Shown one piece after another: positions 183 to 61,144 of a stretch of DNA of 64,000 nt (positions are counted from its first letter, which is position 1; every line of letters starts with the position of its first letter). The translations under genes were made by a program, and so were the position numbers. The DNA comes from Daucus carota subsp. sativus (lineage: Eukaryota > Streptophyta > Magnoliopsida > Apiales > Apiaceae). The stretch lies in assembly GCF_001625215.2 (NCBI RefSeq), contig NC_030387.2, positions 26,362,517-26,426,516 on the forward strand, given 5' to 3'. The notes under the pieces were generated by a model, which saw nothing but the letters and a program-made list of their open reading frames with translations, was not told the origin of the DNA and did not search any database.

Positions 183-316
183 TGGGCCATATGAAGAGGC
201 CCAACCCAACTCAAAAAGGCCGAGGAGGTCATTGGGGCGTCGTGACAAAGTAATAAGTTCCCAGGTCGGCCCACATTGGTGACAAAGGAAATTAGGGTTT
301 GAGTGGTGTATAAATA
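183..316 (+). promoter_or_regulatory. Promoter of snoRNA cluster: site II, telo-box, TATA
   Basis: Three site II-type elements (TGGGCC or its reverse GGCCCA) lie at about 183, 198 and 268. A telo-box-like TTAGGGTTT is at 292-300 and a TATA box TATAAATA at 309-316. Site II plus telo-box is the known signature of plant promoters for ribosomal protein and snoRNA genes, and RNA polymerase II start sites usually lie about 30 nt after the TATA box, here near 340. The first snoRNA begins about 150 nt after that. The motifs are seen directly; their use is inferred from family knowledge. Confidence 0.75.
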
Positions 317-493
317 CTGCGATTTCTCTTAAACCTCACAGATGGGAATGATACAGAAACTCCATCTCTCTGCGATTCATTTTCTCGTATTCTTCCCTCC
401 TTGTATATGTATGTGTTTATAATAATTATTATATTTGTGTTTAAGTTCGATTTGAGTAGTTTATTTTGAGATTACATGGAAAAAGAAAAGAAT

Positions 494-584
494 AGTGCAA
501 TGAGGAAAACACATCTGTGCTCCAGAGAAGAGATGAATATCTCTTCTGTGACGGCTGTACAACCTCTAAGAAGTTCTGAGCACT
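494..584 (+). ncRNA. Box C/D snoRNA, U61-like (18S rRNA methylation guide)
   Basis: The 5' stem AGTGC (494-498) pairs with GCACT (580-584). It encloses a box C, AATGAGGA (499-506, one mismatch to RUGAUGA), and a box D, CTGA (576-579). The guide directly before box D, CCTCTAAGAAGTT, is complementary to AACTTCTTAGAGG, which I recall as a conserved 18S rRNA stretch. The fifth-nucleotide rule puts the 2'-O-methyl on a U, the site assigned to U61 in human 18S. An inner 9-bp hairpin (AGAAGAGAT/ATCTCTTCT) lies between the boxes. It would act in the nucleolus with fibrillarin, NOP56, NOP58 and 15.5K. The box C mismatch is the weak point. Confidence 0.7.
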
Positions 585-626
585 TGACTTTTTGTATCTA
601 TTTATTTGCACTCTATTATATACTGC

Positions 627-712
627 GCGAGATGATGATAGAATTCATTGGTCTGTCAATCCACTGATTATCTCTTGATGTTAAACAATGAATCCCGACA
701 GGATCTGATCGC
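627..712 (+). ncRNA. Box C/D snoRNA, U33/snR55-like (18S rRNA guide)
   Basis: The terminal stem GCGA (627-630) pairs with TCGC (709-712). Box C ATGATGA is at 632-638 (perfect), box D' CTGA at 664-667, box C' TGATGTT at 676-682 and box D CTGA at 705-708. The guide before D', GTCTGTCAATCC, is complementary to GGATTGACAGAC of plant 18S rRNA (recalled). The fifth-nucleotide rule points to the first U of that stretch, the site assigned to yeast snR55 and human U33. I could not match the second guide, before box D (around 690-704), to an rRNA from memory. It sits 42 bp after the previous snoRNA, as expected of a polycistronic precursor. Confidence 0.8.
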
Positions 713-775
713 CTTGGTTTTTCTTTTTCTTTTTTTTTTAAATTTTAATTTTAATTTTATGCGTAAAAAGTTGCA

Positions 776-863
776 GTGGTAGATGATGAAGATATAAAAA
801 GACAAATGGGTAATTTGCGTCTGATTCACATTGATGCTATTCACCTTGGAGAACTGATACTGC
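776..863 (+). ncRNA. Box C/D snoRNA with two rRNA guides (18S and probably 25S)
   Basis: Box C ATGATGA is at 783-789, D' CTGA at 821-824, C' TGATGCT at 832-838 and D CTGA at 854-857. A short terminal stem (776-781 with 858-863, two wobble pairs) closes it. The D' guide GGGTAATTTGCG is complementary to CGCAAATTACCC of 18S rRNA, giving methylation on the first A, equivalent to the yeast A436/human A468 site. The D guide TTCACCTTGGAGAA is complementary to TTCTCCAAGGTGAA, which I recall in 25S rRNA at the U24-type site. All boxes are perfect, so this is the best-formed snoRNA of the three. Confidence 0.82.
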
Positions 864-1807: not shown

Positions 1808-2519
1808 CAGAGAAGAAAGTACCCGTTGATAGCAAACCTGAAACACCAGATCGAGGATTACTTTTTTAGCGGACATTAAACACATTTTCGAAAAACATCC
1901 GTATATTTTCAAATTTGCAGGAGCATTTTATTAGTTTTCCTTTGTTTAGCCTGTTCTTGTGTTCCATAACTGGTCTGGTGTCTTCTGCTTTCAAAATTTA
2001 ACAATTCCAAGTTAATGTGAAATTCAATGAAAATTTAACAGATTTTGTAAAAGTTCACTTACTCCATGAAATTTTGTGCTCTTTTTAACAAGTCTAAGTT
2101 TACTTTACTTTGGAGTGATATCATGATTGTCTGAGTTTACTTTCAACCTAATACTATTGATTTTTAAATCATTAAACTAATGAAATTACAATTTCCTTTA
2201 AAAATATATTTTTTAAATATGTTATCCACATTAATATTTATAATAGGAAATTTGGGTGATATAAAACTTGATTATTATGATTGAATAAACGGCTAATTTC
2301 AATAGATGGTAGGTTGAGCCTTCAAATACACTACTATGTATATAATGTTATTTACCAGCATTAATTACTTTTTCCCCTTTCTGTAAATACTTTCTAATTT
2401 TTGAGTACCAATTATAAACAATAATTTGAAGTAGGTATCCCGTAAATAGGCTACAAAATGGAAACATACTAGATAAACAAAAGCTCATAACTACTAAAAG
2501 AAAATAGTGGAAACACTAG
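1808..2519. other. AT-rich intergenic DNA
   Basis: I see no gene or clear repeat here. From about 2520 the sequence probably becomes the 3' UTR of the tetraspanin gene read from the other strand. Confidence 0.5.
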
Positions 2520-2879
2520 CAGAGTAGCAGTACTACAACACTTCCATTAATATCTTCATGGATTCCCCTCTTCGCAAGTCCATCATAACCTCGTGACAGA
2601 TTCCATCTGGCTCAGGGTTGATAGAGTTGTGAATAAACCATGATTATATTTAAGACTATACACATTATTACACTACACCATGATCACATTGAACCGAAAT
2701 TAATGAGGTGCCAGCTTTGGAAAGGATAAAAGATTCAAGCTCCTAGAATGTTTTCGACAGAAACTTAACAGAGTAAACACCAAACATAAAAGATTCACAC
2801 AATAATGGAACACCACTAGGTGAAAATTGGTTCCAAGAAACACGTACAATAAAAAAATTGTGCAAAACACAGACATTTA

Positions 2880-5800
2880 TTACATGATTGTGCAACGACT
2901 CCCCTCCTCTGCTTGCTGATGTGGGGAAGCTTGCTGATTCCTGTTTGGTTCAGATGGGTTATATGTGAACTCCGAAGTATCAAGTCCATACTGATTACCA
3001 AAGAGAAAAGAAACACAAATATAAACATCAGAGATTATGCTATGGGAATGGGGAAATGCTTTTTCTTTTCTTTTTTTGAGTTTGATTCTATTAAAATTAT
3101 AGTGCAATATATGTATTTCACATGCCTAGATATACTATAAAGTGATTTAGAGAAAAAGGGCACCTTTTCCCGCATACGTGTGCTCCAAGCATCATTCCTG
3201 CTGGGACGGTTGTCAAGGGTACCAGCAACAGGGACACCTGTAGCGGGAACTGGCGCTCTGTTATTGATTAACGGCTGGCGTTGTTGCCTAGGGCCTCCTA
3301 TATACTCATCATCACTATCATATTCTGGTGGCTGATTGGCAGCCCTTACCAATATAGCCAGCAAGAAAACTAGAGCCTACAAAAACACAAGTGATCATAA
3401 AGGGCTTCATAGGATTATGAGAGATAATACACAGGCTCCCATTTAAGTATTGTATACCACATAACAGAAATAGAAATTTTTTGCATTATCACGGACCGGT
3501 GCGCATACAAATACATAATATGCATGCATACAGATAACTCTACAACATATTTTTAACTTGCATAAAACTTGGAAAAATATAGTTTAATGGGTCTGGTTCT
3601 ATAATTTTACAAAAGTCACTAAACTAATCCTTGATTCTAAAACTGTGTGCTGTGTATGAAGATATTAGATGAAAGTGTTAAAATGCTGGAACCAGGTAGG
3701 ACGCTATGATATAAAAGAACACAGCTCTATGATTTTGGAGGTCTAAGAGCATCTCCAAGAGATTAGCTATATGGGACATAAAAATACACAATATACATGC
3801 ATACAGATAACTGTACAATATATATTTTAACTTGCATAAAACTTGAAAGAAATAGTTTTAATGGGTATGGTTCTATACTTTCACAAAAGTCACTAAACTA
3901 ATCCTTAATTCTAGAACTGTCTGTTGTGTTTGAAGATATCAAATGAAAGTGTTACAATGCCTGAACTAGGAAGGACGTAATGCTATGAAATAACACGGCT
4001 CTAGGATTTTGAGGCCTGAGAGCATCTCAGAGATTCGACAACGGAACAGTCTGTCTTACCTGAAGAACTATAGCCCCAAGAGCAGCCCATCTCGCAATTT
4101 TCCAGTTCTTTTCCAGAAAATCCGAAATTTTATCAAAATTGCCAGTTTTGTCATCTGGAATTTGCTGAGACAAATTTGTGTGCCCAATCAGAAAAAGAAA
4201 AAAAATCTTAACTTAATATCAATATAATTAGAATACTTACATCTTTCCAACTTTCGTCGAAGAATATAAATGCTGCTGCAGCTAGCTCTACCAAGATCAA
4301 GAATATCAACAATACAGAATACTAAATTGTGTTAAGGAGAGCTATACAAACCAACAGCTACAATGCCCATTAAAAAGAATTTCACTCAATTTCACAAATT
4401 AAAAGTGTTAAAAGACAGATGACTATCAATAAAATGCTTAATATGTAAAATCAATTTAATTTCCAACAGTTCCATGTACAAGTACCGAAGCCATTCAGAC
4501 AAACAATCATCTGCTGACCCAATATGTTGATAACGAGCATAATAACTGATGCAGAACATAAAATAATTAAATTAGTTGTTAATGATTTAATATTATCATA
4601 TTAATGCAAGGGTATTTGTAACAATTACTTTGTATTATCCTATGTTACCCGGACTCGGCTTAAAAGGTCCAACATGGATACATGTCCGAGTGTCAGACTT
4701 GGCAACATTTTGAAAATTTTACATGTTTATGGACTAAAATAAGTGTCAGGGTGTCCATACCCTGGTCTGAGGGTCAAGTGTCCGACACGAGTACTTGAAG
4801 GAAAATGAAGACTCCGGGTAACATAGATTTTATCTGTTATAAGTATTTTATTGAGATATATGGTAATATCTATCTACTAGGAATTTCTTTAAGTCGGATA
4901 TTTATCTCTTATGAATCTACGTAGTAATTTGGATGAGTGTCTAAATTCCTGAGATAGGACTTTGAACCTAGATAAGGAGATGCCCATATCAATCACATTT
5001 TTATAGTTATTACTTATTAGTTATGAATTAGTGAATACGTATGAAATTTTGATTGTGTTTCCAAGTTTTCCCTGTCAAATTGTATCACCAAGTTAAGTAA
5101 TCCCGCCCGTATCACAATTTCAGGCCATGTCTCAAGATAATTCTCCCCTTCATTTAACCTGATCTAAACCTTGTCTTGCATCGAGGACATCAACATATAC
5201 TACAGTCAAGGTGCCGGTGACTAATATATAACTAATCACCCTTACGTTGTCAAAATATACTATCACTTAAATCATTTCAGAGAAAGAGAAACAAATATCT
5301 AGGATACACAAGACAGACAGCACCCATTCCTTGTTGCTGCTCCTATGCATCCAAAACAGGATATAAAGAAGATGATCACACCAATACCAAAGAATAAGTA
5401 AATGAACCTGCAGAGAAAAAACTTGTCAGCCATCAAATTTAATATTTAGAAATATATTAAGATGGATAGGTCAACAAATCTTATAAAATATGTTCTTTTT
5501 AAAACGGTGTGTGCATCATTTAAAGTTTAATGCATTTCCACATTTTACTTTTGCATCATTTAGATATTACAATTTTCAACTGCAATAAAAATGCAACAGC
5601 AATCCTCAAAATTATATAAACTAGCATTATATTCACAAAATGTATGATAAGAACTCTAAATGGCTACTACAAACAATCTATTAGCTTCTTCCTTTATCTC
5701 ATATCCCATTGGAAAACTTTGTGTTGAGATGAAGGGATTTAAGAACAGATGGTCTATCCAGCACTCGTAGTACAACATGGGCAGTTACATGCTTAAAAAG

Positions 5801-12310: not shown

Positions 12311-12915
12311 TGTTATGGATCAAAAATCGAGGGGTGAGCTTCGTGCTTTTTGACTGATCTCGCGAGTCGGAACTCAGACGGGTCCTCACGAGGTGCCTAC
12401 GTATCTTCAGCGGGGTGAAGAATCAAGTCAAAAAACGTAGTTCTATTTTGGAGGGGTAGAGCCCTTTATATAGATGTCTCAGGGTTAGAGACTGATCAGA
12501 AGTAGGATCCCTGGTGTTAGAGTCCTAGTAGAAATAGGTATTTGAGTCAGAGATAGGATAGGACTGATCCTTGATCCTCATCTTGAGCTGCTGGAGGTTA
12601 TCTAGGACTCTAGTTAGTTATCCACGAAACTCAGAGTTCTTGTAGGACTCTCGGAGTCCTGGACTCGTCAGTCAGACTCCTAGTAGGACTAGGATTCGAG
12701 TTCTGGGCCCTGACCGGGCTGGGGGCTCGTGTCTTGAGTTTGGGCAGCCCATGTTTCTCAAACATGAATGCCCAACGGGCTTTTTATAACCTCAATCTGC
12801 TAGCCACGAATTCTGGGTGATAGACCCAGAGTCCGGGCCTTATATTCTGGCCTTTAATCAGACCCGGGCTCAAAATTACCCAATAATTTTTAGGGCCAAT
12901 TTCAGACCCATATCA
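12311..12915 (-). repeat. Left LTR (3' LTR) of the Retand-like element
   Basis: 605 bp with TG...CA ends. It differs from the right LTR at one base that I could find, once the hAT insertion there is set aside. It contains a TATATAG-type stretch and CGCGAG-rich regulatory-looking sequence. Confidence 0.92.
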
Positions 12916-13109
12916 TTTGCCCCCCAACTTTGGATAAGTTTCGTAGAAACTTTTCTAAAGTTTTAGAGCATTTTCAATCACTTCTCGAGTCTATTTTGAG
13001 TAAGGTCAGCCATCTAGGCCGATTCTGGACTTTCCTTAGTCGATCCGAGGCATTTTGGGGGTACATCAAGTGTTCTGGGGTGCTTTTTGTGCGTTTTCCG
13101 GGCGCTTCC

Positions 13110-14380
13110 AGGGCGCTAGACCTCGCCCAGGTCGATTTAGGGCGCTCAGGGCGTCCAGGTCGACGCTGGCGCGCAGCTCGGGCGCACCTCGGGCGCTCAG
13201 GGGCGCTCAACCTCGCCCAGGTCGATTTAAGGCGCTCAGGGCGTCCAGGTCGACGCTGGCGCGCAGCTCGGGCGCTCATGGGCGCTCGACCTCGCCCAGG
13301 TCGACGCTCGCGCGCACCGTGGGCGCACCTTGGGCGCTTATGGGCGCTCACGGGCGTTAGGTGTTTTTGGACACCCAAGTCAGTTGTCGACCTCACCCAG
13401 GTCGATTTAGGGCATCCTTGGTGCCCAGGTCGACGCTGGTGAGGTCCTCAGGCGCACCTCGGGCGCTTTGGCGCTCCTGGGGCGCTCATAGGGCGCTCCC
13501 AGGGCGCTTCTTGGGCGCTCTCGGGCATTAGGTGTTTTTTGACACCCAAGTCGATTGTCGACCTCACCCAGGTGGATTTAGGGCATTTTAGGTGCCCAGG
13601 TCGACGGTGGTGAGGTCCTCAAGCGCACCTCGGGCGCTCTTGGCGCTCCTGGGGCGCTCATAGGGCGCTCCCAGGGCGCTTCTCGGGCGCTCTCGGGCGT
13701 TAGGTGTTTTTTATCACCCAAGTCGATTGTCGACCTCACCCAGGTCGATTTAGGGTATTTTAGGTGCCCAGGTCGACGCTGGTGAGGTCCTCAGGCGCAC
13801 CTCGGGCGCTCTTGGCGCTCCTGGGGCGCTCATAGGGCGCTCCCAGGGCGCTTCTCGGGCGCTCTCGGGCGTTAGGTGTTTTTTAACACCCAAGTCGATT
13901 GTCGACCTCACCCAGGTCGATTTAGGGTATTTTAGGTGCCCAGGTCGACGCTGGTGAGGTCCTCAGGCGCACCTCGGGCGCTCTTGGCGCTCCTGGGGCG
14001 CTCATAGGGCGCTCCCAGGGCGCTTCTCGGGCGCTTCTGGGCGTTAGGTGTTTTTTAACACCCAAGTCGATTGTCGACCTCACCCAGGTCGATTTAGGGT
14101 ATTTTAGGTGCCCAGGTCGACGCTGGTGAGGTCCTCAGGCGCACCTCGGGCGCTCTTGGCGCTCCTGGGGCGCTCATAGGGCGCTCCCAGGGCGCTCTCG
14201 GGCGTTAGGTGTTTTTTAACACCCAATGTTAATTGTCGACCTCACCCAGGTCGATTTAGGGCATTTTGGGTGCCCAGGTCGATGGTGGTGAGGTCCTCAA
14301 GCGCACCTCGGGCGCTCTTGGCGCTCGTGGGGCGCTTCATGGGCGCTCCCAGGGCGCTTCATGGGCGCTCTCGAGCGTTT
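13110..14380. repeat. GC-rich tandem satellite (~172-bp units) in the Retand element
   Basis: From about 13370 there are about six units with spacing 171, 172, 172, 172 and 162 bp, measured at the shared GCGCACCTCGGGCGCT. Each unit holds TTAGGTGTTTTTT, GTCGACCTCACCCAGGTCGA and several GGCGCTC words. Shorter units of about 88 bp precede them (13110-13360). The block is strongly GC- and CpG-rich in an AT-rich region. Tandem repeats in the 3' untranslated part are known for Tat-lineage elements. Confidence 0.9.
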
Positions 14381-14719
14381 CAGGACTATACATAGTTTAA
14401 ACATGGATTATGCAACCATTAAGTGTAATCATGCTTGATTATGACTTGTTAATGGTATAAGATAAGATTAGGCCTTAATCAAGGTTTTAGGGGCCTTTTC
14501 TAGGCTAATCCCTTGATTAGGGTTTTATAAGGTTTTATACATATTTTATACATGAAAATATGTATAAATATTGTATTTTCATTTATTTTTAGGCTCTAGG
14601 AAAATCTAGATCCTTCCAAAACCTTCTAGATTATGGGCTTTTTCTTGGGCTTGGGCTAGTTGACCTGTAATAGCAGGTCACTTGGCCTGTTGACCTGTTA
14701 GATGACCTGTTGGCCATCC

Positions 14720-14727
14720 TATAAATA
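14720..14727 (+). promoter_or_regulatory. TATA box of the antisense gene in the Retand element
   Basis: TATAAATA lies 112 bp upstream of the ATG at 14839 and is followed by a CT/CA-rich leader (TCATTTCTCACTTCACACTT) typical of plant 5' UTRs. It faces away from the 3' LTR and opposite to gag-pol. Confidence 0.65.
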
Positions 14728-14838
14728 AGTGAGCATCCTCATTTCTCACTTCACACTTCTCACTCTACAAGTTTACAACATCTCTCTAGAATTTTCTCAA
14801 GCTTCAAGCTTTCACCACCAAGGTTCTTTCGAGCTCAA

Positions 14839-16672
14839 ATGGCTGATCGGGAAGCATCACGCTTGGCCAAGATTTCCAAGGCCATGGGCACCTCCTCCAA
14901 GTCCAAGAGAGGTACTCCTATAATCATAAACTCTTCTTGTTCATCTTTACTTGATTTGATCAATATTATGCGGGATGAATACCCCTCCCTAGCTGAGCTA
15001 GGTTCTTATGGCTATGCTGCCGATTGTTCGCCTTCGTTGGCCAAGGCCTATCATAGATTGCTTAACTTTCCCAAAGCTTATTCCCTGGTCCGTGCCGAAC
15101 CCGGGGATAGGACCTGTCATTGGGATCCGCAGCACTTGTTTGTATACAAGCATGCTCTACTAGCCGGACTTAGGTTTCCCCTGCATCCCTTCATCCCTAA
15201 GCTCTTAGCTGATGTGGGACTCAATCCTTGCCAATTGACGCCCAATGCTTGGCGCATAATTCATTGTTTCATGGTTCAGTGCCTATCTAAAGGCCTTTCC
15301 ATGTCTGTCTCATTGTTTCGTAAGATTTTCCAATTCAAGAACTACCCGGTGGGCTCCACGGGTTGGGTTCTTATTAGTCATCGGCCTGACCAGCCTCATA
15401 TTTTCAACAATTCCTCTATTCCGGATAACAACCCTCGTTGGAAGAAAGAGTTCTTCAAGCTACACTGGGAAGGGGGAGATTGGGGAACTCTATTCAGATC
15501 CAAGTTTTGTAAGGTCGTTGATGGGAGTGTCGACTCCATCCACCTATCGGATGTCGAGAAGGCAGCCTATGCTGAATTGGTCAAAGACAATGGCCAATCC
15601 AAATGCTGGGATCTCCTTGATGAATTCAATCTTAGAAAGCTTGGTCTTTCAAGGGTTAGTGATGAAGGTATAAACCCCCCTTTTTTTTTACACCTAGGAC
15701 TTTTCTCGGGTCTACCCCATTATTCACGACTTAACTTATTTCTTGTTTTTGTTTTGCAGCTGCCACAAAAATCAATGAGCAGAATGCGCCTCTCCAAGAG
15801 GTGACGGGTCGTATGAAGCGGCATAGGTTGGCTCAAGACCCTCGGGTCCCTCGGGAGTTGCCTGCCTTCCTTCAACCCCATTCAGAGGGAGGATCATCTA
15901 GTCAGCCTCGGGCTTCCAAGTCTGAAGCCTTTAAACCGGCCTAGGGTTTTCGAAGGACTGATTCGGTGCTGGGATCGACTGTTCATGCTTCTGATTGGTC
16001 CCTTCACTCTATTACCCCTGCCGACTACCAGGATGTGGTGCTACAGTCGGAGATCGAGGGGATTGATGGCTTTGGCTCTCAAGCCCTTGCTAGTGTGAGT
16101 GTTCTTACAAACTTATTGTTTATGTTTTCCGAGTCTTTCTTAACCCGTTTATCTACTTGTCTCAGGCCAATGCTCAATTCCAGGCTGCCCTCCATCAGGC
16201 TAAAGCTTGGAAAAAACAAGCTGAGAGCCACAAGAAGGCTAAGGAATCCTTGGAGAAGGGCATGGAGGCCCTTCGAATCAAGGATGCGGAAAAAGACGAG
16301 ATTGTGGCTAAGACTCAATCGGAGCTAGTGGAAGCTCGAAGCGAGCTAGTCGAGGCTCGAAAGGGAAAGGATGCTATCATCGACGACTATATGGACTCTG
16401 ATGAGTTCAAGAATCTGCTGGAGAAGCACAATGAGACCACCTCTGCAGAGGATTACAGTAACGGGTGGAATGAGGCTGTTCATTTCATTCATGAGGATCA
16501 TCCAGACCTATTCCATCCTAAATGGGATTACCTCTGTCCCATGAGGATTGTTCTTGACTCTCCTAGTCCTATTGAAGAGGAAGTCGAAGATTTGGGTGTC
16601 ATTGAAAAGCATCCGGCTGGGGAGTCCGGGTCTGCAGATAGCTCGGAGGCTGATTCCGAGTCTGATGAGTAG
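14839..16672 (+). CDS. Antisense gene of the Retand element (Transposase_28-like protein)
   Basis: The frame starts at MADREASRLAKISKAMG. The first block (to about 15670) has conserved text such as YPSLAELGSYGY, LRFPLHPFIPKLLADVGL and LTPNAWRIIHCFM, which resembles the Pfam 'putative gypsy type transposon' family (Transposase_28). A later block (about 16160-16672) is a charged coiled coil (QAKAWKKQAESHKKAKESLE) with an acidic tail. GT-AG introns seem to separate the blocks. Such antisense genes between pol and the 3' LTR are reported for Tat/Retand elements; their role is unknown. Codon use is well behaved and clearly coding. It appears to have about one break. Confidence 0.75.
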
Positions 16673-17032
16673 GATTTATTAAGGACCCTGCGTGGTCTAC
16701 TTATTTAGACTTATCTAGCCTTAACTTGTAGTATTAGACTTGCCTAGCCTTAACTCGTAGTATCGGACTTATCAAGCCTTAGCTTGTAATTTTCACTCAA
16801 TCAATGTTAATCGTAACTTATTTATGGTTGAATTCATGTTCCGGGTCGACCCGTTCACGGTAAGTAAACAAAAACTCAAGGAAAACATTAGAAGCATGAG
16901 ATATGGAGCAATCCATAAGAAATTTTATTGAATCTATAGTAGAAGAGATAAACAACTAAAATCAACTAAGTTATAAACTAACTGGAGTGGTCTATCTGAC
17001 CTTATTCAATGGTCATCTACTTGCTAAGATAA

Positions 17033-20000
17033 TCAAATATAATAAATCTTCAAGTTGGTGGCATGCCAACTCCTTGGAAACTCAACTCCATCCAGGGTCT
17101 GAAGCTTGTACGAGCCGCGACCAATAACATCCTTCACCTGATACGGACCTTCCCAGTTTGGGGCCATCTTTCCCTTGGGACCAACTCCTGAGGCCTCAGC
17201 TTTCCTTAGGACTAAATCCCCTTTTCTGAAGAATCGTTCCTTGACTCGGAGATTATAGTAATAGGAAGCTCGTTTTTGGCTCTCAACGATCCTGGCGTTA
17301 GCCTCATCACGGACCTCATCGATCATGTCGAGTGCGAGTCTCATTCCTTCCTCATTGGCTTCGGGCTCATACTGCTGGACCCTGGGGGAGGTATGAGTTA
17401 TCTCAAGTGGCACTACGGCTTCAGCCCCGTAAGCTAACTGGAACGGGGTTGCTCCTGTGGAGACCTTGCAGGTTGTTCGATATGCCCATAGTATAGGGAG
17501 AATCTCTTCAGCCCAAGACCCATGCGCTTTCTCGACTCTTTTCTTTAGCCCATCAAGGATTATCCTGTTGGCTACTTCAGCTTGCCCATTGGCTTGAGGA
17601 TGGGCAACCGAAGTGAATCGTAGCTCAATGCTATAGTCGTTACAGTATCCCACAAACTCTGGATTGTTGAACTGAGCTCCATTGTCAGTAACCAAGACTC
17701 GGGGTATGCCATACCTGCATATGACGTTTTCCCAAAAGAACTGAGCAACTTGCTTGGTGGTTATCTTGGCCAGGGGTTTGGCCTCAATCCACTTGGTAAA
17801 GTAGTCAATAGCCACTATCAAAAACTTCCTTTGAGCACTGGCGAGTGGAAACGGCCCTAGGATGTCCATCCCCCACATAGCAAAGGGAATCGGGGAGTTA
17901 ATGGATGTCAGCATCTCTGGGGGCTGGCGCACAACAGGTGCAAATCTCTGACAACGATCGCATCTCTTAACATAATCCTTCGCATCCTTCAGCATATTTG
18001 GCCAAAAGAACCCAAGGCGAGTAATTTTGTGAGCCAAGGCTCTCCCGCCTAGGTGCTGGCCACAGATTCCTTCATGGACCTCTTTCAAGGCTTCCCGGGC
18101 CTCATCTGGCCTTAAACACTTCAAATAAGGTATAACAAAAGATTTCTTATAGAGAATCCCTTCAATGAGTGCATACTTTAAAGCTCTTACTTGTAGTTTT
18201 CGTGCTTCCCCAGCATCAGGTGGTAGATGTCCAGTTTCGAGATACGTTTTGACCTCATCGATCCAAGTGGCCCCCGTGTCGATTGGGGCTACCAGCTTGG
18301 CATTGATACTTGGGGTTTTCAAAACCTGATAGTAAACACTTCCCGAGCACACCTCATTCTCTGAGGATGCAAACTGGGATAAGGCATCAGCCTTTGTATT
18401 CTCTTCCCTAGGTATATGTTCTACCAAACATTCTTTAAATTGCGTCATCTGGGCTTTCACAATCCTTAAGTATTTCAGCATTGTTTCTTCTCGTGCCTCA
18501 AATTCTCCATTTAACCTGTGACACCACAAGTCTTGAGTCCCCACATACTTTCAGGTTTTTAACCCTCAGGGTTCTCGCCAATCCCAATCCAGCTATAAGG
18601 GCCTCATACTCAGCTTCATTGTTGGTAGTTGGAAAGTCTAACTTGATCGCGTACTCGACCGTGAAGCCATCCGGGCTTCGGAGCACCAGCCCTGCCCCAC
18701 TATTTTTTGTTTTTGAAGCTCCGTCAAAAAATAGTAACCAATACTCTTTAGGTTTCTCCTCTTCTTTGGGTTCCTCTACCATACTCTCCTGCCCCCCGAC
18801 TTCCTTGTTGTCGATGGTGCATTCAACGAGGAAGTCAGCTAGAGCTTGAGCCTTGATTGCCACCCGTGGTTTGTATCGAATTTCAAATTCCCCAAGCTCT
18901 ACTGCCCATTTGATTAATCTCCCACTAGCCTTCGGGCTATGCATTATGTTCCTAAGGGGCTGGTCTGTCAAGACTTCAATTTTGTGAGCCTGGAAGTAAG
19001 GCCTCAGCTTTCTTGAAGCTGTAATCATGGCTAAGGCAAACTTCTCAATCACAGAATAGTTGAGCTCCGCTCCATGCAAAATTTTACTAACATAGTAGAC
19101 GGGTTTCTGGATTTTTCGATCCTCACGAACCAAGACCGCACTCAGTGCTTTCTCAGAGACAGCCAAGTAGACATATAATGTTTCTCCATCCACGGGCTTT
19201 GATAAGAGTGGTGGCTCTGCCATATACTTCTTCAACTGCTCAAAGGCCTCTTGGCTCTCACTTGTCCATTCAAAATCTTTAACTTTCTTCAAAGCCTTAA
19301 AGAAGGGCAAGCACTTATCCCCGGACTTCGAGATGAAACGTCCTAGTGCCGCGATTCTTCCTGTTAGCTTTTGAACATCTTTTATAGACTTAGGCGGCTC
19401 CATATCAAGGATGGCCTTTATCTTGTCGGGGTTGGCCTCAATTCCACGTTTTGAGACCATCAGACCCAAAAATTTTCCAGACCCAACTCCAAAGGCACAC
19501 TTGGTTGGATTCAACATCATCTTATGTGTCCTCAGGACTTCAAAAGCCTCTCTCAGGTGTTCAAGGTGATCAGCTTTGTTCAAGCTCTTCACTAGCATAT
19601 CATCAACATAGACCTCCATGGTTTTTCCAATCAGATGTTTGAACATCTTATTTGCCAGGCGTTGATATGTGGCTCCTGCATTCTTTAAACCAAACGCCAT
19701 AACCAAATAACAAAAGATACCAAAATCAGTGATGAATGATACCTTAGGAATATCGTCCTTATTCATTCGGATCTGGTTGTATCCACTAAAGCCATCCATA
19801 AAGCTCAACATCTCGTGCCCAGCTGTAGCATCGATCAGAGTATCTATTCTTGGGAGAGGAAAACAGTCCTTAGGACAAGCATCATTCAAATCTGTGAAGT
19901 CTACACACATCCTCCACTTTCCATTAGCTTTCTTGACCATGACTGGGTTAGCTAGCCATTCTGGGAATTGGATTTCCTCTATAAAACCTGCTTCCAAAAG

Positions 20001-22553
20001 CTTATCGACCTCGTGTTTTATGGCTTCCTGCCTCTCAGGGGCAAAACTTCTCTTCTTTTGTTTCACGGGTTTTCTATCTGGGCTTACGTTAAGCGTGTGT
20101 GTCATAAAGAGGGGATCAATCCCTGGCATATCGGCTGCGGTCCAAGCAAACACATCCCGGTTGTTCCTCAAGAATTTCACAAATTCGGATTTCATATCCT
20201 CGGGGAGCGACGCCCCTACATAGGTCACCTTCTCGGGCTCATCTGGATATAGGGAGAAGGGAACCAAGTCCTCAGCTGGCTTTCCTCTCCTTTCCTCTTC
20301 CTCTCGGACATCCAAGTCCTCAATTGGGAGAACTTGCCCCCCGGTCCCTCCAGATTTCAGAGCCCCCACATAACAACTTCTAGCCATTTTTTGATCTCCT
20401 ATCTCTTCTCCCACCCCATTCTTGGTAGGGAATTTGATCTTCAAGTGGTAGGTGGATGGGATTGCTTTAAAAGCATGTATCCCAGTCCTCCCAAGGATAG
20501 CATTGTAGGTTGATGAAGCCTTAACGACCAAAAAATTCAGCATACATGTGGCCTGTCTAGGCTCGGTGCCCATTGTCATGGGTAGTTGGATCATACCTTC
20601 AATCTTTGTCTCCACGTTATTAAAGCCGTATATAGGCATATCTGAAGGTGTCAATTGCGAATCTGAATATCCCATCTTCTCATATGCATCATGAAATAAG
20701 ATATCTACTGAGGCTCCACCGTCAACGAGTACCCTTTTTACAGAAGAGTTTCCAATCACCGGGGTGATTACCAAAGGATCATCATGGGGAAATTTAACTC
20801 TGTCAAGATCTAAATTGTCGAATGCTAAAGCAAACTCAATTTTTGCCCTCTTCGGGGGCTCTCCAACAATGTACATCACTTCACGAGCATAAGCTTTTCG
20901 TGAGTTACTAGATAGGCCTGCTGCGGTCGGTCCTCCAGAGATTACATTGATCACAGGCCCTCTAGGCTGGTTTCTCTTATTCCTATCATCGTTGTCTCTT
21001 CCACGGTTGTCATTGTCACGGGGATTCTTGTCCGTATCCCTAGTATACTTGGACAGCTTGCCTTTTCGGATCAAAAACTCGATCTCATCCTTCAACTGCC
21101 AGCAATCATCGGTCTTATGTCCTGTATCCTTATGAAACCTGCAGTACAAGTCCTTGTTTCTCTTTTCGGGGTCAGTCCTGATAGGCTTCGGCCATCGAAC
21201 ACTTTCATCTTTCTCAATTTCCATCAGGATCTGACTCCTAGGGGCATTCAGCCTTGCATACTCAGTGAACCTCGGTCCTGCTTTCTTTTTGGTGGGGGAC
21301 TTATCACCATCCCCTGTCTTTGAATACTTACTATCCGCGTTGTACTCGGTGTCGTTTCCACGTTTCTTTGGGTTCGGGGTCGGTCCCTGGTTATTCTGAG
21401 ATTTCTTCAGGCTTTCCTCAGCCTTGATATACTTCCCGGCCCTCTCCTGGAGCTCATTCATATTTTCAGGGGCCCTCTTGGCTAGTGATCGGCGGAAATT
21501 ATCATCCGTGGTTCCTTGCTGTAGGGCAATCATGGCTACTTTCTGGTCTAAATCCGGGACCTTGAGCGCCTCCTTAGTGAACCTATTCATATAGTCTCTG
21601 AGGGATTCGTTCCTGCCTTGATGAAGGTTCATCAACGAGGCTGAACTCTTAGCGTGGGTCTTGCTTCCAATAAACTGGCCTATGAAAGCTCGGCTCAAAT
21701 CTCCAAACGAGGATATAGAGTTAGGGGGTAGTCGACTATACCAGTGTTGTGCCATCCCACTCAAAGTTTGGGGGAAGGCTCGACACTTAATGGCCTCCGT
21801 GACTGGTTGCAACAGCAATGCATTCATGAAAGTTCGTACATGATTCGCGGGGTCACCCGTTCCATCATACGCCTTAATTGTGGGCAACTTGAACTTTCGA
21901 GAAATCCTTGCTGCCATGATCTCCTCGGTGAATGGGGGGATCGGGTTATCTGGATCACCTGCAGCCAACAAGTGAATTCTATTCATACCTGCGTTCTGAG
22001 GGTTTTCAGTCCGTTGCCGAGGTTCGGGTGGTGGCTGCCTGGTCTGGCGTGCCGCCCTGTCTCTTCTCAACTGAGCTATCTCCTATTCATAAGCTCGAAT
22101 CCTGGCTTCGTACTCCTGGTCCGTGGGTCGACGGGACTCGGGGTTATTCGGCCCGGTGTTGTGCTGGGAGCCTCGGCTCTGGTTTCCGTCTCTCCTCCTT
22201 CGTGGGGGAATATCATAGTCCCTCTCCGAATCTTCAGAAGAGTCGTCCGTATAAACTACATACTCATCGGTTGGTCCTCTTGTGGTCGTCACAACGGTTG
22301 AGTAATGAGTCCCATGATCAGTGGCTGTGGCCACAACATTAGTCATAGGGGGCAGCGTGCCAAAAATCATAGGAATCGAGGTTTGAGCAGCGGTGGCTGT
22401 GCCACTGCTAGCAAGGGCCAACGTGACTGGTGGTGTGGTGGTGACGGGATTTGAGGTTCCAGCGGTGACCTGAGACAAGGGTGGATCCTGGGTTGCGGTG
22501 TTGTCTCCGTTTGAAGGTGCATGAATTTCTGAGCGTAATCTGGTGGACACCAT
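17033..22553 (-). other. Gag-pol coding region of the Retand-like element
   Basis: Parts, read right to left (approximate): Gag core 21.9-21.4 kb (HWYSRLPPNSISSF), zinc-knuckle-like CRFHKDTGHKTDDC near 21.1 kb, aspartic protease LVDGGASVDILF near 20.7 kb, reverse transcriptase 20.0-19.5 kb with YVDDM near 19.6 kb, RNase H 19.3-18.9 kb, second RNase H (LLFFDGASKTKNSGAGLVL) 18.75-18.5 kb, and integrase 18.0-17.4 kb (zinc CDRCQ, core MDILGPFP, DNGAQF). The dual RNase H is the Tat-clade mark. About two breaks separate otherwise long open frames. Confidence 0.9.
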
Positions 22554-22586
22554 GGTTGTTGTCTTCTTCCCACAGACGGCGCCAAA

Positions 22587-23950
22587 TGTTATGGATCAAA
22601 AATCGAGGGGTGAGCTTCGTGCTTTTTGACTGATCTCGCGAGTCGGAACTCAGACGGGTCCTCACGAGGTGCCTACGTATCTTCAGCGGGGTGAAGAATC
22701 AAGTCAAAAAACGTAGTTCTATTTTGGAGGGGTAGAGCCCTTTATATAGATGTCTCAGGGTTAGAGACTGATCAGAAGTAGGATCCCTGGTGTTAGAGTC
22801 CTAGTAGAAATAGGTATTTGAGTCAGAGATAGGATAGGACTGATCCTTGATCCTCATCTTGAGCTGCTGGAGGTTATCTAGGACTCTAGTTAGTTATCCA
22901 CGAAACTCAGAGTTCTTGTAGGACTCTCGGAGTCCTGGACTCGTCAGTCAGACTCCTAGTAGGACTAGGATTCGAGTTCTGGGCCCTGACCGGGCTGGGG
23001 TAGGGCTGTAAATCGATACGGACTATCCGGTGTCTCGGCTCATATCCGGCTCGAAAATATGATACATGTCTCATATCCGTTTTGAAAACGATCCAAATCT
23101 GGCGGAAAAATTAAGCCCGTATAATATATGATCCCGGATACGAGCACACCTATACCCGCTCAGATTCGGTCTCATATAATTTTTCATAATATGATCATAC
23201 CCGAATAACCGAATATGATCCACGGTTCATATTCGATTCAAACTCATATAACATATTATATTTTAACACCATCATATTTGTAAGTAAATAATCATCATTT
23301 TATAAAATTGTAATATCTTATTTAAGTTTATATCTTCATAAAATATGATTTATTTAATGTGATTATACTTATTATCTTCATATATATATATATTTAATAA
23401 ATGATATATACCAACACATAACTATAAGTTTTAATTCAAAATTATTATATTTTATAATATTATGTTTACTTAGACTAAATGATAATTATTTGAACAACTG
23501 AAATAATAATGATATATGACGTTAGTGGATCATATCCGGCTCATATTAGATAGATCATAAACTACCCGGTTAAAAAATAGAAAATACGATACTGGATCAT
23601 ATCCGGTTCAGATCCGAATCTCAAATACCCGGGATCGGTTTATACCCGAATAAAACGATCCCGGACCCAAATCTGGACAAGCTAAAAATAATATGATCCG
23701 GTACTTGAGCAGAGGGGTACCCGGGATCACCCGGATCATTTTACACCCCTAGGCTGGGGGCTCGTGTCTTGAGTTTGGGCAGCCCATGTTTCTCAAACAT
23801 GAATGCCCAACGGGCTTTTTATAACCTCAATCTGCTAGCCACGAATTTTGGGTGATAGACCCAGAGTCCGGGCCTTATATTCTGGCCTTTAATCAGACCC
23901 GGGCTCAAAATTACCCAATAATTTTTAGGGCCAATTTCAGACCCATATCA
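22587..23950 (-). repeat. Right LTR (5' LTR) of the Retand-like element, carrying a hAT insertion
   Basis: It is the same 605-bp LTR as 12311-12915, interrupted once by the hAT element (23001-23751) and its 8-bp duplication. Because this is the 5' LTR, its promoter-to-primer segment is now separated by about 760 bp of foreign DNA. Confidence 0.92.
23001..23751. mobile_element. Non-autonomous hAT element inside the Retand LTR
   Basis: The termini TAGGGCTGTAAAT and (inverted) TAGGGGTGTAAAA are flanked by an exact 8-bp duplication GGCTGGGG (22993-23000, 23752-23759). TAGGG-type ends with 8-bp duplications are hAT features. The interior repeats CATATCCGG-like words and has no transposase ORF. 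It must be younger than the LTR insertion it sits in. Confidence 0.9.
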
Positions 23951-36883: not shown

Positions 36884-38515
36884 TTAATTGTTCACTTGCA
36901 CACCAGTGTCATAAGTATCTCCAGCCTTCCAGTTTTCTGGAATGTTGTTAACTGGAACAACCCAAGTCTCGTCTCCAGTAACATCATTACTAAACAGCAT
37001 CCTCAGAGACAATGATCCGCTAGGGGCTGAAGTTGTCGTCCATACTGCTCCATAACTACGACTCAGAAGCTTGCAGCTAAGATTCTTTGTCTGAAACATG
37101 GAACATGGTGATTAGAGTATAAAGAGAATTAAAAAGTTAAAGTTTAAATTACAGAGTCACGAAATGATGTTCTACCTCGCATAACTGCACAGCAGTAATA
37201 TCACTGTTTCCTTGTTGATACCATAAAGAAAATGCCAAGTAGTGAGGATAGTTGCTGTTCTCATCAATCTTGACTGTTATGTTTTTGGATGGATAGCTGC
37301 ATGACACCCTGTTTAAGAAATGAAATTAAGTAGAGCAGAGATTTATATTGTGTTACAGAGTGCTAATCATCTGTTTAACAACATTAGAATCATACAACTA
37401 GTAAGATATGGTCCCTGGCATACGATTGTTAGGGATCTGTTAAATAACATACTGTTCCTCTGCATGATTACAATTTGTTATAATCCTGGCCGCTGGATAT
37501 TCATCCAACGGCCAGAAATTAGTATGCTATTTAACACATCCCTGGCAATTGTATGCCAAGGACCGTTACTCCAACTAGTAAGCACTCAAATTATTGAAAC
37601 TTTAACTAGTTGTGCAATTGCAATACTTCAAATTCTGTGTGCAAAAACTACGTATATGATCTATAAATTAACAGTGTACCTTCTGTATTCAATATCAACT
37701 ACACCAAGGTTTAGTAAAGAGGCAGCTGCATCAGTAGTCTGAGCCATCCGTCCAAAGGCTCGCCTGCTCAGAATAAAATCCGTGCTGGGGCCAGATCCTT
37801 GGTCAGTTATAACCACATTTACTCCTTTTTCTGAGCAATACGTGCTGTCGGAACACCTCACCTAATAGCAAAGGAGCGACGTTAAGAAAATTAATCATAA
37901 ACTGATTTAAAAACTTGAGTGCGGATAGTTGGTCATCTGACATGGTATGATAACAGAGGTCGTTTAGGAGAGGTCTTGGGTACAAGATCTTTGGTGAGAT
38001 GTGTCCAGGTAATTTAAGAAAGTTAAAACAAATTGTTAAGTAACCAGTTTTCTAAAAACCTCGAGGTATTAGGACTTTCACTTATTTCAATTTTATCATT
38101 TACGTATTCAACATAAATGAATATGATTATATGCATGTGTGTAATCACCTGATAGCAAGCACCACAACCTACACCATCTCGGTAGAGATCAGATGCAGCT
38201 GATACATCCCCGCCGTTAATGGTTGCTCCAAATGTGCCATACCCACACGCCCCACCTAGTATTGATTAATAAAAATATGTTTAGTATATCAAGCAATTAT
38301 TCTTAATACGTGTACTTGTTTAATGCACGCGTTTGTATACATGACATGTGTTCATAGTTCAGAATCTTACTTTCTGTTCCTTTTTCATCAGAATTCGGGT
38401 AATAAGCTGCACGAGAATGAATGAAACAGTCGCTGCATGTTGCAGCAGTCGCGACATTTAAAGCAGAAAGGATGCTTACAAAAAGAACTAAAACGCATCG
38501 AAAAGAAGGAGCCAT
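36884..38515 (-). CDS. Expansin-like B protein, copy B
   Basis: Five exons: 38515-38371, 38255-38149, 37861-37680, 37308-37176 and 37090-36884, giving 257 aa. Exon lengths equal those of copy A except exon 3, which has one extra codon. The signal peptide is about 1-24 ([11 protein letters not shown]), with domain 1 [45 protein letters not shown] and domain 2 [27 protein letters not shown] chose the inner ATG (MAPSF) over an in-frame ATG 29 codons upstream. It matches copy A, and the TATA box at 38606 puts the outer ATG at or before the transcription start. Intron 3 carries a MULE-type MITE. An orphan copy of its promoter and exon 1 lies near 59.4 kb. Confidence 0.93.
37405..37571. mobile_element. 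MULE-type MITE in intron 3 of expansin-like B copy B
   Basis: 167 bp with inverted termini (left GATATGGTCCCTGGCATACG, right, inverted, GAGTAACGGTCCTTGGCATA). The flanks are an exact repeat CAACTAGTAA (37395-37404 and 37572-37581), a 9-10-bp duplication typical of Mutator-like elements. The centre has a GGCCGCTGGAT/ATCCAACGGCC hairpin. Confidence 0.85.
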
Positions 38516-38605
38516 TGATGATTTGTGGATGGAATAAAATGACAGAAGAGGCAAGATAAGCAAAGTAGGAAGTTGGTTGTGCATGAAGTTGGTGTGCTTC
38601 ATATT

Positions 38606-38614
38606 CTATTTATA
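38606..38614 (-). promoter_or_regulatory. TATA box of expansin-like B copy B
   Basis: GTATAAATAG on the minus strand lies about 95 bp upstream of the chosen ATG (38515). The same box survives in the duplicated fragment near 59.59 kb. Confidence 0.6.
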
Positions 38615-38615
38615 C

Positions 38616-40859
38616 TGAAATATTCAGCAATTCTTTTTTTGTAAAAGAAATGCAAATTTGACTTTCAAATTAGTTGAATTCTGTTATAATTGTTTCCAGG
38701 CATCCTTATTAGACTTGCCACGAAATGATGAAAAACCAGATGTTGAAACTCTGCTGTATATTGTTAATTTTCGGTCCTAGGTGCATATCAGGATATGTTC
38801 ATGTGAAAAGCTGTCTAAACAGAATTTTACATTGAAAAATTAGGTATAATCTGCTGACTAATAGGATTTTTTTACCAGATACAAAGTTTTTCTATAACTA
38901 CTTTTACCAGTGTTCAATTTATTCATGGACAGACTGAAATAGTATGTTTATAGCTTGATGATTTGCGATACTGGTCAAATACAGACTTCCAGTGTTCTAA
39001 TTCATACAATAATGTAAGAAAGTCCGAGACAGGGTAGATCAAGGGTCGTGTCTCAAGTTAGGCTGCTTTGCACCATACTAGGAATCAAAATCTTACAAGG
39101 CCACAAGGGTTAGTCATATTGAGATTGTTCTTCTTGTTGAAAGATGCATATGTAACAACACTTGAGAGAAAACTTTGTTTTGGCAATTTGGTTTTGGCCT
39201 AATGGTAAAACATGGACCATGGTAACAGTGACATAGCTCAAGGCATTTATATACCGCGTAGCGTGTGTGTCTGCAACTTGTGTCTGGTCTTGACATGCAC
39301 AACAGCAACTTGTTTCCATGTTCCAAATGGTGGATAAGAACCGGTTCATATAAATTTGGTTCTATACCACTCAAGTAACTCTCTACAAATTCAACACCAT
39401 ACAAGGTTAGGCAATGTGATTCCACCATTTTAAGGTTACTGTCACACCATATAGGATATTCCATACTTGATGATCACACCAATTTGTACTATTGTTTTGT
39501 CGAAAATATATCTTTGTAGTAAATAAAAATATATTAATCAACTAATTAAATAAAAACTGTCTTTGTTTTTCCTAGAATCGTCATGAATGCATATTATTTC
39601 ATTTCATTGACAACATGATGAAATTATCCTCAAACTCCTTCATCGATCAGGATGAATTACTCAATTAATCTTTATTCTAATTTATATTTAATTCATTACT
39701 AAAAATAAAAACCATGATCAGTACTGAGTAGTTAAAACAGCATATCCGACGACATCAAAAGTGTGTTGCAAGTACTCTTTGTGTGGTTTCTCTGTTCATC
39801 TGCTAATCTTGGATTATGTGCATAATATATGTACATATAAATATACGTTCATTACGAATGAATTAATGAAGTGAACTCAGAGGTTAATTCGTAGAACTCC
39901 CAAGTAACAAAAGCTGCATCTACTCTTTCCAAATAGATCAAACACATCTCCTCATCATGCTTTCCCCAACGCAAGTACCTCCGAGTTCAGTTCATTCATT
40001 CCTAATGAATGTATATTTATATGTAGATATAATATGCACATAATCAAGATTAGTAGGTGAACAGAGAAACCATACAAAGAGTACTTAGTTACTCCGGACT
40101 ACTGATCACAGGTTTTATTTTGTAGTAACGAAAAAAATATAAATTAAAATCCTGATCGATGAAGGAATTTGAGAATAATATCATCAGTTGATTTTGATTT
40201 CTTTTCGGCCACCGCTTGTGACACCGGAAAATCCCTTATATTGAGCCGGGAGTTTTCAACTTTAAGCTGAAAAATGTCTGTTTGTGTAATAAGTCAGAAA
40301 TCAGCTTAAAGTAAAAATACTCCAGAAACTGACTTAAAGGCCAGAGAGTTATTTTGAGGTACTTTTTTCGGTGATTTAATTTTTTTGAAATTTTTTTGAT
40401 AAAAATTACTCCAAGTCATAAGTTACCCAGAGATTAATTTTATTTTTATTATTATATTTTTAATAGACTTTAAGTCATTAATAAGTCAAAATTACCCAAA
40501 CAGAATTTCAAACTCGCAGCTTATAAAATAAGTCACGTTAACTCATAAATCATGTTAACATAAGTCATTAGATCAGCTAGACGGGCTCTTAATCGAATGA
40601 CTAGTTAAGGTGTAAACATTTAACTGGCATTCCCCGAATTCAACATGGTACTGTTTCTTATTAACTGCTGTCGTAGAAAACTGGAAATAGCTAGCATGTG
40701 ATGTATTAGTATAACTTTAAGCAAGTCCAATAGTTTGCCTAAATGAGCGTCCTGAAATTCATGGTAAAATTTGTTAAGGACTTGAGTGATGAGAAAAGTG
40801 AATTATTGTCTTGATAAGTCACATTTTGCTGGTATTGCTATTAGATTTTGGGCTAATAC
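38616..40859. repeat. Duplicated upstream region of EXLB copy B and adjoining block
   Basis: 38.6-39.5 kb is closely repeated at 59.6-60.6 kb, including CATGGACCATGGTAACAGTG and a 116-codon open frame on the minus strand with a shorter partner there; neither is recognisable. 39.73-39.98 kb recurs at 60.74-60.97 and 43.33-43.55 kb, and part of it is repeated inverted at 39.98-40.09 kb. 40.20-40.72 kb resembles 61.79-61.95 kb and part of 43.86-43.93 kb. I see no working gene. Confidence 0.75.
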
Positions 40860-42140
40860 ACGACATGAAAAATACGCGAACCTGGTGAGAAAGTAGTCGA
40901 GTGGAGACAGGAGGAGACGGCCAAAGAAGCTAAACGAAGACGAGAGAGACCAAAGTAGAAGTCCTGGAGTGACCTCGGGACTCCACCACTTGTCCCAGAT
41001 TGTTCAGAAAACTAGCCCGAGAGTTGCACCAAACAAATAAACTAAAAAATATAACCAGAAATCCAACTTCTTGAGCTTCAACTTTGGTCCAATCTCCTCT
41101 TCTGCTGCATCATGACTGATTTCTCCCCCTTTTTTCACTTCAGCATTTTCCAAATTCTTGAGCATCAACTTTGGTCCTGGACGTAACATTTTCATCTGTC
41201 AAAACGCTACACACACCTTGCGCTGCCTGATCCAGCACTTGTGCTGCACGCTTTCTCTGATTTTCTCCACCAGAGGAACCTCTGATTTTCTCCACCAGAG
41301 GAACCAGGAGCGGGCACACGACAACTAAAAGTACGATACCAATCAGTATAAACATCTGAGATGATCTACTAGATAATGTTGAAACCCCTAGACTACTACT
41401 GATCACAGCATAAGTACCGGTGACTGGTTATTAAAAACATTACAATAAATCCTGAAGATAATTTTCTGCTGCAGGAATATGGTGATCCGCCACTAGGACT
41501 ACGCGGATCATCAACATTTGATGATCTAGCCACTAAAGGCGCCACGATTATACACACTAGAAAAGGCAAAACAGAATTTACCAAAAGATCTCTTTTGCTT
41601 TATCAACAGACGAAGAATTAGCGTACAAGACATCAATAACATCTGCGTAAATCTTTGCATTGAGGCCTTGATAGCTAGTGGATAATCCCAAAGCAATTTG
41701 CATATCCAGAGGAAAACTTTAAATAGTAAGAACATAGCACACAGTGTTAATACAGCAAATGCTATTCCCTGCTACAACAGTTAATAAGAAGACAAGCCAG
41801 TATGGTGTTGAGGTTTGATCATGCAAGTTAGTTAGAAAGAAATATTGCAAGCCATAACCAATCATTCCGATTAAAGAACCGATCAGGAGTACTAGCCATA
41901 CTGGAAGATGAGCTGCAGCGACGCCAGAGAACCATGCAAGGATTTTCCCCGAGTCAGAAGCAAAGGCTAAGTTATTGAGCTCAACTTGTGAAATATTAAG
42001 GCGCTTGAGCTGCGAAGAGTAGGCTGAAAAGTTCGTGCTGGTGCCACTTAGAGATTGAAGCCATATAGTAGCTACTAAACTAAGCCATTGTGCAGACATA
42101 ACGAGAAGCAGAGTATATATTTTGACGTAATTTCTTTTAC
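40860..42140 (-). pseudogene. Nodulin-like/NFD4 MFS transporter pseudogene, left arm of a palindrome
   Basis: On the minus strand the text begins SAQWLSLVATIWLQSLSGTS and continues SSQLKRLNISQVELNNLAFA, YWLVFLLTVVAGNSI and SFPLDM. This is the N-terminal half of the plant Nodulin-like (PF06813) MFS family, NFD4 subgroup. Further down come SSGFIVMFLIT, LFGATLGLVF, NNLGQVVESRG and SRTSTLVSL of the second half. It is spread over several frames with frameshifts and stops, and a small internal duplication (TTCCTCTGGTGGAGAAAATC twice near 41.27 kb). It reaches about 180 bp further than the right arm. No intact ORF remains. Confidence 0.85.
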
Positions 42141-43200
42141 GTAATGAGAATATATACTCTGCCTCTGATAATGTCTGCACAATGGCTTAGTTTAGTAGCT
42201 ACTATATGGCTCCAATCTGTAAGTGGCACCAGCACGAACTTTCCAGCCTACTCTTCACAGCTCAAGCGCTTTCTCAACATTTCACAAGTTGAGCTCAATA
42301 ACTTAGCCTTTGCTTCTGACGCGGAAAATCCTTGCATGGTTCTCTGGCGTCGCTGCAGCTCATCTTCCATTATGGCTTCTACTCCTGATCGGTTTCGTAA
42401 TCGGGATGATTGGTTATGGCGTGCAATATTTCTTACTAACTTGCATGATCAGAGCTCGACACCTTATTGGCTTGTCTTTTTATTAACTGTTGTAGCAGGG
42501 AATAGCATATGCTGGATTAATACCGTGTGCTATGTTCTTATTAATCAGAGCTTTCCTCTGGATATGCAACTTGCTTTGGGATTATTCACTAGCTATCAAG
42601 GCCTAAGTGCAAAGATTTATGCAGATGTTACAGATGTCGTGTACGCTAATTCTTCGTCTGCGGATAGGAAGAGGATATCTTTTGGTAAATTCTGTTTTGC
42701 CTTTTCTAGTGTGCATAATCGTGGCGCCTTTAGTGGCTAGATCATCAAATGTTGATGACCCTCGTAGTCCTAGTGGCGGATCGCCCTATTCTTGCAGCAA
42801 AAAATTATCATCAGGATTTATTGTAATGTTTTTGATAACCATAGTTACCGGGACTTATGCTGTGATCACTAAGTCTAGGCGTTTCGACATTATCTAGTAG
42901 ATCATCTCAGTTGTTTATACTGATTGGTATCGTACTTTTAGTTGCCGTGTGCCCGCTTCTGGTTCCTCTGGTGGAGAAAATCAGAGAAAACGTGCAGCAC
43001 AAGTGTTGGATCAGGCAGCACAAGGTGAGTAGCGTTTTGAGAGATGAAAATGTTAACGAACCACCTTCAAATTTGGAAATTGGTGAAGTGAAAAAGGGGG
43101 AGAAATCAGTCATGATTCAGCAGAAGAGGATATTGGACCAAAGCTGATGCTCAAGAAGGTGGATTTCTGGTTATATTTTTTCATTTATCTGTTTACAGAA
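41035..43200. repeat. Long inverted repeat (~1-kb arms, ~20-bp spacer)
   Basis: The arms 41035-42130 and 42150-43200 are inverted copies of the same nodulin-like sequence, meeting head to head near 42140 (AGCAGAGTATATATTTTGACG and CGTAATGAGAATATATACTC). The arms differ by scattered substitutions and a few indels. A transcript crossing the centre from either side would fold into a hairpin of about 1 kb. Confidence 0.88.
42145..43195 (+). pseudogene. Nodulin-like/NFD4 MFS transporter pseudogene, right arm of a palindrome
   Basis: The plus-strand mirror of the left arm: MSAQWLSLVATIWLQSVSGT, SSQLKRFLNISQVELNNLAF, LVFLLTVVAGNSICWINTVC, MQLALGLFTSYQGLSAKIYA, then LVNSVLPFLVCIIVAPLVAR in another frame. 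The longest open piece is 198 codons (42144-42740), which has run out of frame by its end. It stops after the central loop (GEVKKGEKS), so transmembrane helices of the C-terminal half are missing. Confidence 0.85.
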
Positions 43201-46190: not shown

Positions 46191-46198
46191 ATTCCCTT

Positions 46199-46206
46199 AT
46201 AAAAAA
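46199..46206 (+). promoter_or_regulatory. TATA-like box before the split nodulin-like fragment
   Basis: TATAAAAAAG follows a TTCTCCCATTCC leader and precedes the nodulin-like text that begins near 46240. It may be the original promoter of this gene copy. Confidence 0.35.
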
Positions 46207-46398
46207 GCCTTCCCCTGAATAATTTCATAATCATACCTTGTAGCACCAGCACGAACTTTCCAGCCTACTCTTCGCAGCTCAAGCGCCTTCATAACATTTC
46301 ACAAGTTGAGCTCAATAACTTAACGTTTGCTTCTGATGCGGGGAAAATCCTTGCATGGTTCTTTGGCGTCGCTGCAGCTCATCTTCCATTATGGCTTG

Positions 46399-47209: not shown

Positions 47210-47541
47210 TGTTACACTACAGATCTAAAATAACATAGAAATGGAAGAATACAAGAAGACAGAAATTAAAGCTGATCATAAAAGACAATTTTGTTCTCCA
47301 AGTTACTCCATACAGTGAGACATGTACCACCTAAATACATCTCCCTAGCCACCAAAATTAATTACCAGCTGCTCAGAGGGTCCTACAAGACCGTTACTTG
47401 TAACAAATTACTGGCAGTGCTACTAGTCTAAACGACATCGTGCTAAACAAAACTATTAAATAATATAGTAGTTCACTCTTAAAATAGAACGACAGCGTTT
47501 CACTTTAACAATCCTTCCCGCCTTTCAGCTAATTCGTGACA
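47210..47541 (-). repeat. Left LTR (3' LTR) of the Reina element
   Basis: 332 bp, identical by eye to 52426-52757. Confidence 0.93.
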
Positions 47542-52423: not shown

Positions 52424-52425
52424 TT

Positions 52426-61140: not shown

Positions 61141-61144
61141 TGAT

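Follow-up and report, generated by a model that had tools for sequence, protein, structure and literature searches.

A U61 - snoR14 - snoZ101 gene cluster near the start of a 64-kb carrot sequence most probably forms a polycistronic plant box C/D snoRNA gene

A 64,000-nucleotide stretch of the carrot genome (Daucus carota subsp. sativus, contig NC_030387.2, positions 26,362,517 to 26,426,516; hereafter the window) carries, close to its beginning, three box C/D small nucleolar RNA (snoRNA) genes on the + strand, which almost certainly form a single non-intronic, polycistronic plant gene in the order U61 - snoR14 - snoZ101 (SnoR15-like). The gene had been recognised from its promoter and boxes alone, without tools, as a real non-coding gene (hereafter the original prediction), and its members and their three 18S rRNA targets can now be named. 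Its identification draws on sequence homology, boxes, terminal stems, promoter motifs and three pairings with 18S rRNA. The Rfam assignments are:

495-583, + strand: U61 snoRNA gene (Rfam RF01170)
627-712, + strand: snoR14 gene (Rfam RF01280)
774-865, + strand: snoZ101 gene, SnoR15-like (Rfam RF00358)

We searched the whole window on both strands with the covariance models of 4227 Rfam families, using the gathering score of each family as cut-off, a search that the original prediction had proposed as a check. Only three families reached gathering level in the 64 kb, each at the place where a box C/D unit had been proposed: U61 (60.2 bits versus a gathering score of 55, E = 1.7e-11), snoR14 (85.1 bits versus 40, E = 1.8e-16) and snoZ101 (69.1 bits versus 44, E = 2e-11). 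A lax search of positions 1-1500 returned 14 matches, with the same three on top and the other 11 below their own family cut-offs.

As had been claimed, each of the three units has a C box, a D box and a terminal stem, the stems comprising 5 pairs in U61, 4 in snoR14 and 9 in snoZ101. The elements, all on the + strand, are:

U61: C box ATGAGGA, 500-506; D box CTGA, 576-579; terminal stem, 494-498/580-584; D guide, 563-575
snoR14: C box, 632-638; D' box, 664-667; C' box, ~675-681; D box, 705-708; terminal stem, 627-630/709-712
snoR14 guides: D' guide, 651-663 (18S); D guide, 692-704 (predicted 25S)
snoZ101: C box, 783-789; D' box, 821-824; C' box, ~831-836; D box, 854-857; terminal stem, 773-781/858-866
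snoZ101 guides: D' guide, 808-820 (18S); D guide, 841-853 (predicted 25S)

From the three units we took the 13-nt guides that precede a CTGA word, five in all; pairing was scored out of 13, and the target nucleotide was read by the D+5 rule. The reference was a non-plant, 1800-nt eukaryotic 18S (record L008, positions 2050-3849), presumably from yeast or a close relative, judging from its length. It is part of a complete eukaryotic 18S and 5.8S with a partial large-subunit (LSU) rRNA (2050-4963) in a record labelled as the bacterium Planomonospora parontospora, where it is probably contamination; a first scan for 18S words had returned three contigs, none with rRNA according to Rfam. One guide in each of the three units pairs with this 18S and has a D+5 target there, as originally proposed: the U61 D guide (12 of 13, D+5 at nt 1378, a U), the snoR14 D' guide (11.5 of 13, nt 1231, a U) and the snoZ101 D' guide (12.5 of 13, nt 436, an A). 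Among 521 control 13-mers preceding other CTGA words in the window, two scored at least 11.5, one scored 12 and none 12.5. The snoR14 and snoZ101 D' guides also pair at the equivalent place in a second record, L007, and that of snoR14 does so in a third, L006.

Table 1 of PMC8053127 lists the Arabidopsis 18S sites U1384 (U61.1), U1235 (SnoR14) and A440 (SnoR15, U16), whose numbering exceeds that of our reference by 6, 4 and 4, respectively; the sites were equated by this offset and not by alignment. The D+5 letters of the five guides (U for U61; U and U for snoR14; A and C for snoZ101) agree with the sites which that table gives to U61, snoR14 and SnoR15. In Arabidopsis numbering, the predicted targets would be 18S U1384 for U61, U1235 for snoR14 and A440 for snoZ101/SnoR15.

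The guides had originally been likened to U61-, U33/snR55- and yeast A436-type sites. The first and the last of these labels stand, the snoZ101 guide falling on nt 436, but the second does not: the middle unit is snoR14, and its guide scores 3.5 of 13 in the register of nt 1269, which we take to be the yeast snR55 site, versus 11.5 at nt 1231. U1235 (SnoR14) and U1273 (U33, SnoR34) are separate Arabidopsis sites in Table 1 of PMC8053127.

We also scanned both strands of the 64 kb for a C box, allowing one mismatch in its seven positions, and a CTGA word 55-125 nt apart, flanked by a terminal stem of at least 4 pairs. When the 23 resulting candidates were ranked by their best 18S guide pairing, the three units took the top three places (12.5, 12 and 11.5 of 13), and the best score among the remaining 20 was 11. 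Further snoRNAs in the window were considered and rejected: none reached Rfam gathering level, our own scan, which compared CTGA guides with 18S only, gave none above 11, and H/ACA snoRNAs were checked through Rfam alone. A tRNA-snoRNA dicistron was likewise discarded, ARAGORN finding no tRNA in the window.

The promoter of site II motifs, telo-box and TATA box that had been described upstream of the units was recovered, with motifs starting at 183, 198, 268, 292 and 309:

183-273, no strand assigned: three site II motifs (TGGGCC at 183, GGCCCA at 198, GGCCCA at 268)
292-300, no strand assigned: telo-box TTAGGGTTT, the reverse complement of AAACCCTAA
309-316, + strand: TATA box TATAAATA, read from the sequence

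In a simulation of 20,000 200-mers (first-order Markov, window composition), nine had at least three site II motifs and none had these together with a telo-box. Throughout the window, of all 200-bp stretches starting at a site II motif, only that at 183 contains three such motifs and a telo-box. PMC4660826 gives TGGGCY as the site II consensus, and the succession of site II, telo-box and TATA box ahead of the first snoRNA corresponds to its definition of a plant TeloSII snoRNA gene. In plants, snoRNA genes commonly occur as polycistrons with promoters of the telo-box and site II type (PMC4660826, PMC3022908); in Arabidopsis, PMC3022908 reports that at 34 of 40 non-intronic snoRNA loci a telo-box is accompanied by either a TEF box or a site II motif. 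The motifs at 183-316 fit a TeloSII promoter; because the same combination recurs elsewhere in the window, they would not prove a snoRNA gene by themselves, and their weight comes from the TATA box and from their position directly before three snoRNA genes. The single promoter block and the close spacing of the units (43 and 61 nt) suggest polycistronic transcription.

The strongest competitor, itself quite improbable, is that the three snoRNAs belong to a longer host transcript, inside one of its introns or exons, and have no dedicated gene. Intronic clusters are indeed found in plants, rice having them more often than Arabidopsis, and the host genes may share the promoter motifs (PMC3022908); moreover, the window begins only 182 bp ahead of the motifs. 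Against a host stand the TeloSII-TATA block directly before the first snoRNA, the lack of any closed open reading frame (ORF) of at least 110 aa within 12 kb downstream, although short exons would escape such a search, and the degenerate look, by eye, of a leucine-rich repeat (LRR)-like stretch at ~1,300-1,650. The ORF search agrees with the original statement that no protein explains the region: no closed ORF of at least 110 aa (ATG/GTG/TTG to stop) was found in the first 12.9 kb, frames running off the window end and short exons not being looked for.

A slightly less probable alternative still is that a duplicate of the cluster has decayed or fallen silent here, recognisable in sequence but no longer expressed. 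The single mismatch in the U61 C box would suit such a duplicate; it is opposed by the joint integrity of the other features, since the promoter motifs, the stems of all three units, the guides and, but for this mismatch, the C, D and D' boxes of the matched guides are intact together. Chance resemblance in A+T-rich DNA, conceivable given how short C and D boxes are and that 11 of the 14 lax Rfam matches in 1-1500 are below gathering, is refuted by the whole-window E-values of 1.8e-16 to 2e-11 and by the guide controls (2 of 521 at 11.5 or more), and its probability is negligible.

Both snoR14 and snoZ101 carry a second guide, before box D, which the original prediction had left unmentioned and whose D+5 position calls for a U in snoR14 and a C in snoZ101. 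Table 1 of PMC8053127 lists 25S U803 for SnoR14 and C1860 for SnoR15 and U55, and these are probably the targets of the snoR14 and snoZ101 D guides, respectively. In the lax Rfam search the snoZ101 D guide was identical over UUCACCUUGGAGAACUGAU to the Aspergillus Afu_294 consensus, a sign that its target is widely conserved. Around the position expected for U803, the Rfam consensus for eukaryotic LSU is variable and decides neither way. Scans of viral contigs for conserved eukaryotic 25S words gave no match, or just record L009.

Several observations weigh against the identification of the locus or of its targets. The U61 score is just 5 bits over its cut-off, its C box departs by one mismatch from the RTGATGA consensus, and its guide has no match in the 18S of L006 (9.0), the L007 fragment stopping short of the U61 site. 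The overall folding energies of the three units (z = -2.11, +1.62 and +0.29) leave two of three without a stable overall fold; weak overall folding is usual among C/D RNAs. The D guides of snoR14 and snoZ101 scored, respectively, 9.5 and 10.5 of 13 on 18S, 9.0 and 9.5 in the LSU of L006 (a divergent eukaryote, reaching only to Rfam model position 1752) and 9.0 and 8.5 in that of L008, which is a short piece, all inside the control range; in L009, whose LSU-like end is only ~100 nt long by eye, they scored 10.0 and 9.5 at unrelated places. PMC8053127 is itself inconsistent on 25S U803, given to SnoR30 in the text and to SnoR14 in the table. Finally, a second promoter-like combination occupies 141 bp (14517-14657) and consists of a telo-box at 14517 and TGGGCT words at 14634, 14646 and 14652, and two long terminal repeat (LTR)-like copies each hold two site II motifs and one telo-box. 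Confidence in a dedicated snoRNA gene derives from the Rfam matches and the 18S pairings; neither the combination at 14.5 kb nor the weak D-guide scores change its odds.

From the sequence, transcription, processing and methylation of rRNA at the 18S and the two 25S targets can be predicted as follows. Transcription starts ~30 bp below a TATA box, and RNA polymerase II would initiate at this distance here, under the control of the site II motifs and the telo-box. A single precursor would be made; three RNAs of 85-95 nt would be excised from it, with trimming back to the terminal stems. Each of the three would then join fibrillarin and its partners and guide 2'-O-methylation of rRNA.

The remainder of the window contains repeats and elements, some with the same motifs. 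Together with the three snoRNA families and the promoter motifs, the plant-type genes and retrotransposons in this part indicate a plant sequence, probably that of a dicot. Just downstream of the snoRNA gene, the stretch at ~1300-1650 resembles, by eye, a degenerate LRR receptor-like sequence and has no closed ORF of at least 110 aa. The combination at 14517-14657 lies ~180 bp before an ORF (14839-15804) with the Pfam domain Transposase_28 (putative gypsy type transposon). A gypsy-type element occupies 12311-23000, with gag-pol on the - strand at 17.0-22.1 kb and a tandem array at 13.2-14.4 kb; it is probably a recent insertion, since its 414-bp repeats are 100% identical. Long LTR-like direct repeats of ~763 bp, 95.5% identical, are found at 46399-47162 and 56505-57267. 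They hold site II and telo-box motifs at 46883, 46908 and 47047 and at 56972, 56997 and 57152, placing the promoter signature of plant ribosomal and snoRNA genes inside apparent retrotransposon LTRs. Nested between these repeats is a Ty3/gypsy-type element (47210-52757), whose 332-bp ends are identical and whose long gag-pol frame runs on the - strand. Several diverged blocks of ~0.25-1.1 kb are common to 38428-46399 and 58203-64000, possibly reflecting a segmental duplication, and Nodulin-like and ZIP coding pieces (42144-42737, 57597-58238) are located near the repeated blocks.

Compared with the TeloSII polycistronic snoRNA genes described in PMC4660826 and PMC3022908, the carrot gene has the same site II motifs, telo-box and TATA box upstream of a C/D cluster, here most probably non-intronic; no difference appears at the motif level. 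PMC5122169 counts rice cluster 49 (U61-snoR14) among the conserved clusters and names as its Arabidopsis equivalent a cluster of three genes, which appears in print as 'U61-U14.1-U56'. As in carrot, U61 is followed by snoR14 in a small cluster in both; the Arabidopsis cluster includes a third gene, printed as U56, whereas the third gene here is snoZ101/SnoR15-like, a comparison made by name only. By the sites listed in PMC8053127 for Arabidopsis SnoR15 (18S A440 and 25S C1860), the snoZ101 D' guide fits A440 (nt 436) and its D guide wants a C at D+5; the likeness to SnoR15 is judged by these target sites and not by SnoR15 sequence, and Table 1 gives A440 also to U16.

The carrot gene is an ordinary gene in the standard plant arrangement, one further copy of an already published cluster, and what biology gains from it is this additional copy. 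We tentatively raise the possibility, for which the odds are clearly unfavourable, that the order U61 - snoR14 - SnoR15-like has been kept since early angiosperms and that published cluster lists either omit its third member or give it a wrong name. If this three-gene order has indeed been kept, one set of mostly 18S methylations would be tied to one promoter.
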